This document shows positions 12,192 to 63,539 of a stretch of DNA of 64,000 nucleotides, in pieces. This DNA is from a virus: positions 126,001 to 190,000 of the IMG/VR virus record IMGVR_UViG_3300033183_000491; one strand, 5' to 3'. Both the position numbers and the translations under genes were made by a program. Every line of letters begins with the position of its first letter. The stretch's first letter is position 1. The notes under the pieces were generated by a model. It had not been told where the DNA came from. It searched no databases and saw only the letters and a program-made list of their open reading frames with translations.

Positions 12192-12199
12192 TATTTATA
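12192..12199 (-). promoter_or_regulatory. T4-type late promoter TATAAATA
   Basis: Minus-strand TATAAATA in the 38-base gap between two structural genes, 24 bases before the ATG at 12168. It is a perfect match to the T4 late box and would give a leader beginning near 12185 with the TAGGAGA site intact. Confidence 0.7.
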
Positions 12200-12206
12200 A
12201 ATATTA

Positions 12207-37013: not shown

Positions 37014-37718
37014 TTAAAATATGTCAAACATCTTATCTGGTCCAGCTACTTTTTTATAGTGCTTTCTTATTGAAGATAAAGAAGAACTTAGTTCTGAACT
37101 ATTTAGGCCAGAAATTTCTCTCAAATATACGAAAATAGCTCTTTTATTTAAATAGTCTAAATTATCTACATTAGTAAATATCTGTTGTATAGCTTTAATA
37201 CACCTTATATCTTTTTCATCTTTTAGTTGATCTTCGATATAAAGAAGCATTTCATCTATTACACTCGGTATATTTTCTTTTCTTTCTTTTTCATCGGGCG
37301 ATAATTCTATACTAGTCTCTGAAAGATATTTCTTGTCTGAAAATGATAAGTTTTCTGGAGCATTTAATGATACACTTCTATTCGCGTTTTTTGCTAATCG
37401 TCTAGAATTAATCGTTAACCAGTTTTTTGCGACAACATTAAAATAAGAAAAAGCTTTCGTACCATTTTCAGGATTCCACTTGTTAATTGTTTCAAATAAA
37501 AAGGTAGAACAATCGTTTTTTAAATGGCCAATATCTTCTATAGAAGCTTTAAATTTATAAACAGACACTAAACTGTGAACTAATTCATTAAAAGCTGGCA
37601 TTATATGATGTTCATATATTTTATCTTTTTCTTTTTTAGAATCAGTCTTTTGATAGAGAACTATTTTTTCTTGTGTCTCCATCGTGAAATATTGTTTTCT
37701 TTTTCTTTTTTTGGCCAA
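37014..37718 (-). CDS. gp55: late-transcription sigma factor, gp55-like
   Basis: 234 residues (T4 gp55: 185). The sigma region 2-like core is visible: DIGHLKNDCSTFLFETINKW at 62-81, then NPENGTKAFSYFNVVAKNWL at 82-101 and SRRLAKNANRSVSL. The sequence FSYFNVVAKNWL corresponds to the YxYFxxxxxN helix of region 2.3/2.4 that recognises the late -10 box. There is no region 4, as in T4, where gp33 supplies that role. It should direct host RNA polymerase to TATAAATA boxes, four of which are found in this window. The start is TTG at 37718-37716 after AAAGGA with 8-base spacing. Confidence 0.9.
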   Translation of the reverse strand: MAKKRKRKQYFTMETQEKIVLYQKTDSKKEKDKIYEHHIMPAFNELVHSLVSVYKFKASIEDIGHLKNDCSTFLFETINKWNPENGTKAFSYFNVVAKNWLTINSRRLAKNANRSVSLNAPENLSFSDKKYLSETSIELSPDEKERKENIPSVIDEMLLYIEDQLKDEKDIRCIKAIQQIFTNVDNLDYLNKRAIFVYLREISGLNSSELSSSLSSIRKHYKKVAGPDKMFDIF

Positions 37719-39057: not shown

Positions 39058-40995
39058 ATGGCAAACTACACACTCGGAAACGGTGACGGAATCCAGATTT
39101 GGAATCAAAGTAGTGCATCTACTAAGATTGCTCAAGGAAGTGATTCTGTTGAAATTAACGATATTGTAATTTCAGGTAATTCACCAAAACTTACAGTTCC
39201 TGTCGGGAGTCTATATTTAGGTGCAACGCAGATTACTGTTGAGGCGACAGAACTTAATACACTTGATGGTTTAACAGCTTCTACTACAGAACTTAATTAC
39301 TTAGATATTACTACTTTAGGTACAGCGCAAGCATCAAAAGCAATTACTGTTGATGGTTCATCACAAGTAGATGCTAGTGCAATCACATTTACAGATTTAG
39401 GTACAGTTACTACTGTTGATATTAATGGTGGTACTCTTGACGGAGTAACTATTGGAGGAGCTTCTGCAGGTGCAGGTACATTTACATCTTTAGATTGTAA
39501 TGACGGAGCATTTGCGATTGCAAATCTAGACATTGATGGCGGGACTGATATTGGTGCTGCTTTAGTCGATAGTGACTTATTTATTGTTGACGATGGAGCA
39601 GGTGGAACAAATAGAAAATCTGAATTATCACGTCTTAAAACTTATTTAGAGACATCATCACTTTCATTTTCTGGAGCAAATACATTTGAAAACGCTACAG
39701 GACAAACTTTCCAAGGTGATGAAGGAAACGCAGCTTCAATTTATCTTAAGGCAGATCAAGGTGATGATGCAGGTGACTCTTGGGAAATCTCTGTTGCTGA
39801 TGGTGGCGTATTAACATTCGGAAATGACTCAGCAGTTCAAGGAACTTATGCAGCTCACGTTACTCTTACACCAAATGCAGTCGCTGGTTCATCTTCAGCA
39901 TTATTTGCTGGAAATCTTACAGTTAATGGTGACCTTACTGTTAATGGTGATACAACTACACTTAGTACTTCTACTTTAACTGTCGAAGACATCAATATCG
40001 TAGTTGCAAATGGAGCAGCAGACGCAGCAGCAGCTGATGGTGCTGGTTTAACTATTGACGGTGCAGATGCTACTTTAACTTGGGTTAATGCTAGTTCTCA
40101 TCTCGCTTTTAATAAAGATGTTAACTTCATTACAGACGGTATCAAGATTAATGGAACAGCAGTTACTGCTACTGCAGCAGAACTTAATACATTAGATGGA
40201 ATCACAGCTAATGTTGGTGAACTTAATGTTCTTGACGGAATTACAGCTTCAACTTCAGAACTTAATCTTCTCGATGCAACAGCAGGATCAACATTAGCTT
40301 TAGCAGCTGGTGACGGTCTTATTATCAATGATGCATCTGATGGTAATGCAACAAAGAAAGTGCTTGTTAGCGATCTTACAAGTTTCTTTGCTACAAGTGG
40401 TTCTACAACAGCTGATAATATTACATCAGGATCAAGTGCAGTAGAAATTACTACGACTTCTGGTGACGTTGTAGTAGATGCCCCTACAGGACAAAGCGTT
40501 AATCTTCAAGTTAATGGCTCTGACGTTATTGAAGTTGCTGGTGGACGCGTTGACGTTTCACAACCTCTTATTCTTACAAATGCAGGTCTTAGCTTACAAC
40601 CAGCTGCAACACACCCAGCATTCTCTGTTGGACACGTTCTTGCTTTTGAAAGTAATGCTGCAAATGGTGGTTTAGAACTTGCAGATTGTGACGATACAGC
40701 AACTAGTTATCTAAATGCTCCTTTAGGTATTGCTTTAGAAACTTCTGCAGAAAACAGCACAAGTGCTATTATGGTTCATACTCTTCATGGTGCACGTGTT
40801 AATGTACAAATTTCTTCAAGTACAACAGCACAAGGACAATGGATTTACCTAAGCGACACACCCGGTGTTGCTACAACAACAGCACCGACAAGCGGTATGG
40901 TTTGGAGACTAGGTCTTTGTGTAGAACATAATGGAACTGCTGTAACTGATACTGATATTATTTGGATGCCACAATTCTTAGTAGATCTAGGATAA
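39058..40995 (+). CDS. tail fibre/adhesin-like protein with ELNxLD repeats
   Basis: 645 residues, rich in Ala, Thr, Gly and Asp, unlike the Asn/Lys-rich structural block. Repeats of the form (A/S)ELNxLDG(I/L)TA occur at about 60-90 and 370-410, a hallmark of long phage tail-fibre or virion adhesin shafts. Residues about 155-200 contain the module DSDLFIVDDGAGGTNRKSEL, also found in the minus-strand fibres of the region. The C-terminal 120 residues (from PAFSVGHVLAFES) form a beta-rich head domain likely to contact the host. The gene stands on the plus strand, divergent from the Cas4-like gene, with AGAAAGG about 9 bases before the ATG. Confidence 0.87.
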   Translation: MANYTLGNGDGIQIWNQSSASTKIAQGSDSVEINDIVISGNSPKLTVPVGSLYLGATQITVEATELNTLDGLTASTTELNYLDITTLGTAQASKAITVDGSSQVDASAITFTDLGTVTTVDINGGTLDGVTIGGASAGAGTFTSLDCNDGAFAIANLDIDGGTDIGAALVDSDLFIVDDGAGGTNRKSELSRLKTYLETSSLSFSGANTFENATGQTFQGDEGNAASIYLKADQGDDAGDSWEISVADGGVLTFGNDSAVQGTYAAHVTLTPNAVAGSSSALFAGNLTVNGDLTVNGDTTTLSTSTLTVEDINIVVANGAADAAAADGAGLTIDGADATLTWVNASSHLAFNKDVNFITDGIKINGTAVTATAAELNTLDGITANVGELNVLDGITASTSELNLLDATAGSTLALAAGDGLIINDASDGNATKKVLVSDLTSFFATSGSTTADNITSGSSAVEITTTSGDVVVDAPTGQSVNLQVNGSDVIEVAGGRVDVSQPLILTNAGLSLQPAATHPAFSVGHVLAFESNAANGGLELADCDDTATSYLNAPLGIALETSAENSTSAIMVHTLHGARVNVQISSSTTAQGQWIYLSDTPGVATTTAPTSGMVWRLGLCVEHNGTAVTDTDIIWMPQFLVDLG

Positions 40996-41011
40996 AATAG
41001 GTATAATTAAT

Positions 41012-41070
41012 ATCTCCAGTAATATATTTATTAACATCAATCCTAATTAAAATAATATATTACTGGAGAT
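41012..41070 (+). promoter_or_regulatory. 17-bp perfect hairpin that hides the ribosome site of the next gene
   Basis: ATCTCCAGTAATATATT at 41012-41028 and its exact reverse complement AATATATTACTGGAGAT at 41054-41070 are separated by 25 bases. The right arm holds the Shine-Dalgarno GGAG (41065-41068), 6 bases before the ATG at 41075. In RNA read through from the fibre gene, this stem would block ribosome binding. There is no T-tract after the stem, so it is not an intrinsic terminator. T4 gene e is a known case of an early transcript with its ribosome site closed by a hairpin. Confidence 0.8.
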
Positions 41071-41074
41071 TTAA

Positions 41075-41455
41075 ATGTCAAGTAAAGAAAAAATTCTAAG
41101 AATAGGTTTAGGCGAAGCAATTTCAAGATTAATGAAACTTGAAAGTATGAGATCAAATAGACTTCACCCAATGCCAAGTCAAGCAATTGCTGAAAGAGAA
41201 ATGCTTTATTTAGCTCTAAATGAGATTAAAATTGATCTTGGTTTCGATTGTGATGATGATGGTCTTCCTGATTCTGTTGAAATTTTTGAACAAAGTGCTC
41301 GATCTTCTTGTTGCCGACTAGTTCAGTCTGAAGATAGTGGTCCGAAAAAGTCTAGAATTAATAGAGCAAAAGTTCAAAGAGGACAAGTTACAAAACAAGA
41401 AAAACCTAAAGAAGAAATCAAAAAGGCAAGAAAATCTCGCTCTAGAAAGAAATAA
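41075..41455 (+). CDS. hypothetical protein with basic tail, translation probably hairpin-controlled
   Basis: 126 residues. Residues 1-75 are helical (ILRIGLGEAISRLMKLESMR, then QAIAEREMLYLALNEIKIDL), followed by an acidic, calcium-site-like stretch CDDDGLPDSVEIFEQ near 67-81, a pair Cys-Cys near 87, and a strongly basic C-terminal tail of Lys/Arg repeats ending KKARKSRSRKK. The tail would bind nucleic acid or acidic surfaces. No family is recognised. It lies between two fibre genes, read from the plus strand, and its ribosome site is buried in the 41012-41070 hairpin, implying control of when it is made. Confidence 0.78.
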   Translation: MSSKEKILRIGLGEAISRLMKLESMRSNRLHPMPSQAIAEREMLYLALNEIKIDLGFDCDDDGLPDSVEIFEQSARSSCCRLVQSEDSGPKKSRINRAKVQRGQVTKQEKPKEEIKKARKSRSRKK

Positions 41456-41482: not shown

Positions 41483-41746
41483 TTGTCTCTGTTTGAACTT
41501 TTATTTTGCTATGGATTAACATTTGGAATGATGAATAAAACATCATGGATTCAAAACAGAATTCAAATTTTAGATGATATGTTAGCTTGCTCATATTGCA
41601 CTGGGTTTCATGCAGGCTGGATTAGTCTTTTGCTTTTACATCCTACATTATTTAAAGACCCACAAACTATTTTGTTTTGGGCCTTTGTTTCTTCGTCATT
41701 TAGTTATATTATAGACACTTTTGTTGCCTATTTAGAAGATAATTAA
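41483..41746 (+). CDS. small membrane protein with 'CxYCxGFHAGW' motif (DUF1360-like)
   Basis: 87 residues from a TTG start. Hydrophobic segments at about 3-16, 40-54 and 63-82 suggest two or three membrane passes. The motif CSYCTGFHAGW (Cys36, Cys39, Gly41) is the mark of the DUF1360-type small membrane proteins seen in phages and bacteria, function unknown. The AAAGGAG site at 41468-41474 fits only the TTG at 41483 (8-base spacing), because the frame's earlier TTG at 41465 lies in front of it. The stop TAA shares its TTAA with the stop of the facing fibre gene. Confidence 0.78.
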   Translation: MSLFELLFCYGLTFGMMNKTSWIQNRIQILDDMLACSYCTGFHAGWISLLLLHPTLFKDPQTILFWAFVSSSFSYIIDTFVAYLEDN

Positions 41747-43962: not shown

Positions 43963-43970
43963 TATTTATA
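43963..43970 (-). promoter_or_regulatory. T4-type late promoter TATAAATA
   Basis: Minus-strand TATAAATA, 19 bases before the ATG of the 733-residue fibre gene, in the 48-base gap after the 91-residue gene. The plus strand also reads TATAAATA at 43967-43974 because the site is a palindrome (TATTTATAAATA), but there is no plus-strand gene to serve. Confidence 0.7.
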
Positions 43971-43992
43971 AATATAAAGTAATTTTTCTTAA

Positions 43993-56801: not shown

Positions 56802-58130
56802 TTAAAGTTTTGCTGCAACTATATTTGCAAGATCTGATCTATATCCCTTAGTGAAATTAATATGACCTGTTAAAGATTCTTCTTTTAATTTTTCAACTGT
56901 AAGAGTTAATCCATTCGATAATTTATTAATATAAGGTAAATCAACTTGTTCTATATCACCTAACAAAATTATTTTTGAATTTTTGCCTGTTCTAGTAATT
57001 ACAGTTTTTAATTCATGGACAGTTGCATTTTGAGCTTCGTCAACAATCATTACAGAGTCATTAAAACTTCTTCCTCTGATATGTGATAAAGGTGCTACGT
57101 CAATCTGACCTTTTTCCATCATCATTTCGAAATAAGAAAGATCTCCAAATTGATTTCTAAAGTTATCTACAATTGGTGATAACCAAGGAGACATCTTTTC
57201 ATTTAAGTCTCCGGGCAAGAAGCCAATATCTTTCCCTACTGTCTGAATAGGTCTTGTAAATATGATTCTTTTCTTTGAACCTTTTTCTATAAACTTTAAT
57301 GCAGTCATTAAAGCTAAGTATGTCTTACCACTACCAGGAACGCCTGTTAGAGAAACTAAAGGTATATTTTCATCTAATAAAAGACTTAAAGCAAATATTT
57401 GTTCTTTATTTTTAGGTTCAATACCAGAATTTTTATATAACTCTTTTTTTCCGTCCAAAACAATCAAACGATCATCTTTTCTTATTAGAAGACATGATTG
57501 ATTACTTCCGTTGTTAGATTTAAGAATTAAAAATTCATTTTCAGAAATGTCTATATTATAGTTTTCTTCAACAAGGTCTTCTTTTATCTTCAAATGATTA
57601 CCAGAATAGGCTCTGTTTATAACATCTGGGTCAACTAATAGTTCAACATACCCTTGGAATAAATTGTCTTTCTGCACAAATTCGTAATCTGCATAATAAT
57701 CATCTGCTTCTATTCCTACAGAATCACATTTTACTCTTAGATTAATGTCTTTAGTAATTAAAACAACTTTATTACTTAAATTTTTAAAATAGTTTGCATT
57801 AGAAATTATTTTATTATCATTTTGGTTTTGATCTAATCCTTGTAAACCTGACCAATCACATTCAGCATTTACTGTTATTGATATATCTTTATCTTCAACA
57901 TATATTCCTGAATGTAGGCTTCCTAATTTTCTTAAATCGTCTAGATATCTATTAAAAAATCTAGCATGTTCTCCTAAAATACCCTCTCTTGTTTTAAATT
58001 TATCTAGTTCTTCTAAAACAACTAAAGGTATTACTATATCATTTCCTTTCATATTAAACAAAGAAAATTTGTCATAAAGTAAAACGCTAGTGTCAACAAT
58101 AAAAGTTTTTCTAATATGTTTTTTACTCAT
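56802..58130 (-). CDS. phoH: PIN-PhoH fusion protein (PhoH2-like)
   Basis: 442 residues. An N-terminal PIN-type nuclease domain (about 8-145) has FIVDTSVLL (Asp13), LEELDKFK (Glu40/Glu41) and ITKDINLRVK (Asp128). The PhoH ATPase follows: Walker A TGVPGSGKT at 262-270, GRSFNDSVMIVDEAQN with Walker B at 361-368, and the sensor LLGDIEQVDLP. A conserved IRGRSF loop and the final GYRSDLANIVAAKL are also typical. PIN-PhoH proteins unwind and cut RNA in related systems; phage phoH genes are widespread in marine phages, but their role in infection is not settled. The gene faces away from the plus-strand mini-protein gene; the ribosome site is weak. Confidence 0.93.
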   Translation of the reverse strand: MSKKHIRKTFIVDTSVLLYDKFSLFNMKGNDIVIPLVVLEELDKFKTREGILGEHARFFNRYLDDLRKLGSLHSGIYVEDKDISITVNAECDWSGLQGLDQNQNDNKIISNANYFKNLSNKVVLITKDINLRVKCDSVGIEADDYYADYEFVQKDNLFQGYVELLVDPDVINRAYSGNHLKIKEDLVEENYNIDISENEFLILKSNNGSNQSCLLIRKDDRLIVLDGKKELYKNSGIEPKNKEQIFALSLLLDENIPLVSLTGVPGSGKTYLALMTALKFIEKGSKKRIIFTRPIQTVGKDIGFLPGDLNEKMSPWLSPIVDNFRNQFGDLSYFEMMMEKGQIDVAPLSHIRGRSFNDSVMIVDEAQNATVHELKTVITRTGKNSKIILLGDIEQVDLPYINKLSNGLTLTVEKLKEESLTGHINFTKGYRSDLANIVAAKL

Positions 58131-58202
58131 TATCTAGTAAAATCTTTCTTTTAAATCTATAATAAAATAAATATCAAATTTATTAGAAAGGTTTATTAAA
58201 TA

Positions 58203-58466
58203 ATGAGTAATAATACAGATAGTTTAAATAATGTAACATGCTATAATGCACATAAACTAAAAAACAAAAGCTGTAAAAATAAAAAATGCAGATACTGGCA
58301 TGATCTAAACGATGATGACAATAACTGCATTTTAAACAAGGTAAATTCTGATAAGGATTTTACTTTGCAAGAAATAGGCGATTTATTTGGTATTACTAGA
58401 ATGAGAGTATGTCAAATCGAGAAAGGAATTCTCGATAAAATTAAAAAGAACTTAACTCTTGCCTAG
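58203..58466 (+). CDS. zinc-finger plus sigma region 4-like mini-protein
   Basis: 87 residues on the plus strand. The N-terminal part has four Cys (Cys13, Cys24, Cys29, Cys42) with Trp32-His33 between, consistent with one zinc site. Residues 53-83 read FTLQEIGDLFGITRMRVCQI followed by EKGILDKIKKN, which is the helix-turn-helix of sigma-70 region 4.2 (TLxEIGxxFGxTRxRxxQIE). Region 4.2 binds the -35 box or contacts the polymerase flap. No region 2 is present, so it is not a full sigma factor. With the gp55-like protein, which lacks region 4, it could act as a detached sigma-4 or coactivator, or as an anti-host factor. SD AGAAAGG is 11 bases upstream. Ends overlap the facing histone-like gene by 15 bases. 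Confidence 0.85.
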   Translation: MSNNTDSLNNVTCYNAHKLKNKSCKNKKCRYWHDLNDDDNNCILNKVNSDKDFTLQEIGDLFGITRMRVCQIEKGILDKIKKNLTLA

Positions 58467-63527: not shown

Positions 63528-63539
63528 TATTTATAAATA
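63528..63539. promoter_or_regulatory. bidirectional late promoter, palindrome TATTTATAAATA
   Basis: TATTTATAAATA contains TATAAATA on the plus strand (63532-63539) and on the minus strand (63528-63535). It lies in the 68-base gap between the divergent genes at 63503 (minus) and 63572 (plus), the only space in which either promoter can sit. It may drive both, with mutual exclusion because the boxes overlap. Confidence 0.65.

Follow-up and report, generated by a model that had tools for sequence, protein, structure and literature searches.

Coordinated arm changes point to a translation-blocking RNA hairpin behind a fibre-like gene in AT-rich uncultured phages

The window, the 64-kb stretch of DNA analysed here from a 239,550-base virus record, carries a long inverted repeat in the gap between a fibre-like gene and a gene for a small protein. 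The upstream, fibre-like gene (39058-40995, plus strand; 645 aa) gave a single weak PHROG match, with no function assigned to it, and its stop codon lies 16 nt ahead of the left arm of the repeat. The product of the downstream gene (41075-41455, plus strand) is 126 aa long and combines an EF-hand-like DxDxDGxxDxxE stretch with an invariant CCR (Cys-Cys-Arg) and a basic tail. Behind this gene lies another plus-strand open reading frame for a small protein (41483-41746, probable start TTG at 41483), which is kept in this place in relatives. Alignment of the 126-aa protein gave a 25-member family (A11) of small proteins from uncultured phages, encoded next to a fibre-like gene. Neither the protein nor its family had a match in Pfam, PHROG or PDB, and the predicted structure (mean pLDDT 66, pTM 0.40) was too poor for a structure search. 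No relative was present in the genome collection; the relatives came from uncultured virus contigs. In L001, L006, L007 and L009 a fibre-like gene precedes the orthologous open reading frame, and the small protein follows where neighbours were examined.

The left arm of the repeat (41012-41028) and its right arm (41054-41070) match exactly as reverse complements and enclose a 25-nt loop (41029-41053) on the plus strand. The right arm holds the Shine-Dalgarno (SD) sequence GGAG (41065-41068), separated from the ATG at 41075 by 6 nt. All of these features, the 17-bp complementarity, the loop and the position of GGAG, had been described in an earlier sequence-only reading and were confirmed. The repeat ranks top among the inverted repeats of the window and is its only perfect one of at least 17 nt with a loop of 3-60 nt. 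None of this kind arose in 150 dinucleotide shuffles of the window, in which arms of at least 14 nt appeared 0.17 times per shuffle. No second copy of the arm sequence was found in the rest of the virus record.

A 126-nt RNA with the hairpin folds to -23.6 kcal/mol (z -2.9), and the 100-nt leader of the 126-aa gene to -20.8 kcal/mol (z -5.3). In the folding model GGAG is paired with a probability of 1.00, and opening the SD window of this start costs 18.3 kcal/mol, rank 2 among the 171 gene starts examined in the record. A search of Rfam 15 returned no family above its gathering score; the best match, mir-559 (23.9 bits against a gathering score of 95), was set aside as chance. This fold, and masking in seven other orthologous starts, support the proposal that the ribosome site of the 41075 gene is masked by the hairpin.

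These seven starts come from distinct AT-rich relatives (L001, L004, L009, L006, L007, L046 and L048), giving eight with the window. In 8/8, RNA folding places a hairpin over the SD sequence, the AUG or both, the arms differing widely in sequence. The stem of L046 is, like that of the window, a perfect one of 17 bp, but unrelated to it in sequence. In L006 (clearly) and L048 masking falls more on the AUG than on the SD sequence, and L001 and L048 are weak when taken singly. The mean opening cost of the SD window is 12.1 kcal/mol in the eight starts vs. 4.46 in 190 control starts (Mann-Whitney p 1.3e-6), whose genes were called mechanically and have gaps of 45 nt or more ahead of them.

Coordination between the arms was assessed by an alignment-free half-swapping test, in which each leader was cut in the loop and every 5′ half was joined to every 3′ half. 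Swapping destroyed the masking: native combinations average 12.1 kcal/mol and swapped ones 4.5. The native combination of halves is the best among all 40,320 permutations of the eight starts. L004 and L009 resemble the window, so that these three are not independent, and with L004 and L009 left out the native combination is still the best of 720 permutations. The native excess of 7.6 compares with 0.64 ± 0.99 (maximum 4.05) in 150 control sets treated alike, the loop cut being placed from the native fold in the controls as well as in the eight starts.

Compensatory changes in related phages, named as a check in the sequence-only reading, were found. In a hand alignment of the window and L009 anchored on CC/GG, four pairs are compensated on both sides and the stem is lengthened on both arms; three pairs at the outer end of the stem and one internal pair are lost. 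MAFFT/RNAalifold applied to the window, L004 and L009 misplaced the arms through an indel and reported one compensatory pair, vs. the four found by hand, and was rejected; the case for co-evolution is carried chiefly by the half-swapping test. Loss of pairing without compensation, named in the sequence-only reading as a refuting outcome, was looked for and was not found. These comparisons give strong evidence that selection acts on the pairing and not on the letters. There is good support for a conserved RNA hairpin that masks the ribosome site on transcripts reading through from the fibre-like gene and, because related phages keep the fold with quite different letters, this hairpin is very probably genuine as a translation lock of the type already known from phage T4.

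The fibre-like gene lies on the same strand as the masked gene and is positioned, as in the T4-type arrangement, so that its transcript could run into it; scans found no terminator between the two. We propose that the inverted repeat works as RNA, with transcripts leaving the fibre-like gene folding into the 17-bp hairpin, which would hold the SD sequence of the 126-aa gene and keep ribosomes from starting on read-through RNA. Ribosomes that terminate at the fibre stop, 16 nt ahead of the stem, should leave it closed. Synthesis of the 126-aa protein would use a shorter RNA without the left arm, which most likely starts inside the hairpin or else is cut there. A start inside the hairpin would free the gene because RNA beginning at or after 41029 loses the hairpin in the folding model and folds only to -4.4 kcal/mol. 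The purpose of such a device would be to insulate the 126-aa gene from the fibre transcript. We regard this explanation as a whole, with masking hairpin, shorter RNA for expression and insulation, as probable. Structure, masking of the start region and arm co-evolution across the eight orthologous starts are computed properties of the sequences; translational silence of the read-through RNA, an internal start and the insulating purpose are what we infer from them.

A promoter inside the hairpin is plausible, and in the window itself the candidate is weak. The candidate element, TATATTTA, spans the end of the left arm (41023-41030, plus strand; PWM score 5.9), and a start some 6-7 nt past it would give RNA without the left arm. 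A second element, TATAATTA, lies just ahead of the left arm (41002-41009, plus strand; PWM score 7.1); RNA initiated from this element would retain most of the stem, which complicates the reading of an internal promoter. Octamers of the TATAATTA type are enriched upstream of genes in the AT-rich lineage and occur in the loop or at the end of the left arm in L001, L007, L009, L046 and the hairpin of a sheath-like gene described below (P 0.012, modest support). Looked at as candidates for the late promoter of T4-type hairpins, they are present in 5 of 8 hairpins. Plain TATAAT gave P 0.07 in the same test. A promoter search by PWM learnt only a TATAAT-like motif and was not decisive. The motif TATTAAC(AT) is found repeatedly, on the loop side or in the left arm, in the window (41029-41037), L004, L009, L007 and the leader of the sheath-like gene in L138; it was rejected as a promoter because its copies in gaps favour neither strand (9 forward, 12 reverse).

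Other motifs were observed in this lineage. In the AT-rich relatives, the gaps ahead of genes are strongly enriched in CATAAGGT and AAGTGTAATT. Plus- and minus-strand copies of TTTATAAATA lie two bases apart at 2052-2063, 12192-12203, 43963-43974 and 63528-63539 of the window, with the minus-strand copies 21-32 nt ahead of gene starts, a pattern that would fit overlapping late-type promoters of opposite orientation.

A stricter version of the lock would follow the timing of T4 gene e, with the hairpin closed on early or middle read-through RNA and a late promoter inside it giving an open late transcript. Genes e, soc, 49 and I-TevI of T4 operate in such a manner, according to PMC3014915 and PMC2988022, and the enrichment of TATAATTA-type octamers upstream of genes and at the loop or left-arm ends of hairpins is consistent with it. 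However, the octamer carries little information in a genome of 28% G+C, the same test with plain TATAAT gave P 0.07, and no TATAAATA was found in the window hairpin. The fibre-like gene is itself probably late, the genes ahead of it lie on the opposite strand, and no early plus-strand transcript upstream of the 41075 gene is evident from the gene layout. We consider strict T4 timing, with early silence and late activity, rather unlikely. A late sigma factor was suspected at 37014-37718 and was dropped, with no Pfam, PHROG or PDB match.

The same gap holds other structures in more distant orthologues. Among 18 distinct ones it often contains a strong hairpin, and in at least 8 of the 18 a hairpin followed by a T-run, that is, a terminator (L014, L016, L063, L069, L076, L110, L111 and L113; L014 and some others were read by eye, both home-made scans missing some plain terminators such as that of L014). 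These structures are what favours a reading in which the hairpin terminates or protects the fibre mRNA, as a terminator or a barrier at its 3′ end, and overlaps the next ribosome site merely through genome compactness. Against it, no hairpin with an immediate T-run, the G+C-rich stem of an intrinsic terminator, was found in the window gap by the standard scan or in the eight members of the AT-rich clade by either scan. Moreover, the start region lies within the stem in 8/8, which a terminator does not need. On the scans, termination was rejected for the AT-rich clade, and the reading as a whole is improbable.

For the translation lock, the terminators of the distant orthologues suggest insulation from the fibre transcript, and lock and terminator would both separate the small gene from that transcript. 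It is possible, though we lean somewhat against it, that the AT-rich lineage uses a lock with an internal start where distant relatives use a terminator at the same place, that the two devices interchange in evolution, and that the lock is also used at other borders of structural genes, such as that between tail tube and sheath-like genes.

Expression from a shorter RNA could also come about by cleavage. A perfect 17-bp stem is a possible substrate of a double-strand-specific RNase such as RNase III, and removal of the left arm would open the ribosome site, as RNA without that arm is open in the folding model. Mismatches and stem lengths differ among the orthologues, however, and the sequence shows no sign of a cleavage site; as a cutting site the stem is very improbable.

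A closed ribosome site needs some means of opening, and the stem could instead be a switch that temperature, a protein or a small RNA would open; the unexplained TATTAAC on the loop side of the window, L004 and L009, and in L007, could be taken in its favour. Yet the loop is not conserved across the clade, no Rfam family was matched, and when folding was modelled at several temperatures the SD sequence of the window stayed paired with a probability of 1.00 from 5 to 60 °C. An RNA thermometer was rejected on this result, and a switch is highly doubtful. The sequence-only reading is partly supported: masking of the ribosome site is supported, a promoter in the loop is a candidate, and opening by temperature is disfavoured.

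The least probable reading is that the inverted repeat matters as DNA, whether as an antisense promoter, as a site bound by a protein or as what is left of facing gene starts: a sigma-70-like TTGACA-N16-TATATT (11 of 12) does lie on the minus strand at 41081-41054, and divergent phoH-type pairs in the clade carry inverted repeats from twin SD sites, but no divergent gene starts meet at the window hairpin, the minus-strand TTGACA is absent in L001, L004, L006 and L009, and conserved pairing with arm sequences that are not conserved fits RNA better than a protein site.

Start-site hairpins were also seen elsewhere in the record. The highest opening cost among the 171 gene starts examined, 20.5 kcal/mol, belongs to a gene for a sheath-like protein of 1,079 aa (G000:C1:93407-96646, minus strand, equal to L138:7407-10646), where near-perfect hairpin arms lie over the SD sequence. 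This gene comes after a gp19-like tail tube gene and has TATAATAA in the hairpin loop. A third strong hairpin covers the start of a 248-aa gene (G000:C1:204615-205361, minus strand, equal to L140:14615-15361; opening cost 15.5 kcal/mol). Divergent phoH-type pairs are also high in opening cost, and their repeat derives from two facing starts. In four phages (window 56802-58466, L134, L127 and L117) a PhoH-like gene and a divergent gene for a small Cys/His-rich protein have facing starts that form an inverted repeat, and in L117 this repeat extends into both coding starts, so that both proteins begin MAIKNS.

Hairpins over ribosome sites with internal promoters are already known from a few T4 genes and from homing endonucleases. 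Here such a hairpin masks a resident gene without assigned function, in the gap where more distant relatives often put a terminator, and co-evolving arms have preserved it across divergent uncultured phages. The locus offers a testable case of the separation of neighbouring genes in compact phage genomes, and it hints that the 126-aa protein must not reach the level of the fibre gene. The alignment-free half-swapping test could reveal further locks.

The closest parallels are in T4. According to PMC3014915, the SD sequence and/or AUG of e, soc, 49 and I-TevI lie in an intramolecular RNA helix on upstream transcripts, and in gene e of T4-type phages the 5′ strand of the structure contains the promoter. 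For T4 e, soc, 49 and I-TevI and for Aeh1 mobE, late promoters are described within the 5′ arm or next to it (PMC3014915 and PMC2988022). The window hairpin resembles these in holding its SD sequence in an RNA helix. Unlike them, it lies behind a fibre-like gene and not an early one, contains no TATAAATA, has an internal start only as a candidate, and masks a gene without assigned function.

For the homing endonuclease genes I-TevI to III, segB and Aeh1 mobE, PMC2988022 describes a stable hairpin that sequesters the ribosome-binding site (RBS) in a longer transcript, as the window hairpin is predicted to do; the window gene differs in having no endonuclease match and in keeping its place beside the fibre gene in many phages. 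The same source places a strong hairpin directly before seg43(25) of Aeromonas phage 25, with the SD sequence outside it. That gene and the distant orthologues with terminators share with the window a strong hairpin in the gap immediately before the gene, but their hairpins do not hold the SD sequence, and several of those in the orthologues are followed by a T-run. The window hairpin has the structural features of the T4-type RBS-sequestering hairpins and, on present evidence, would work like them.
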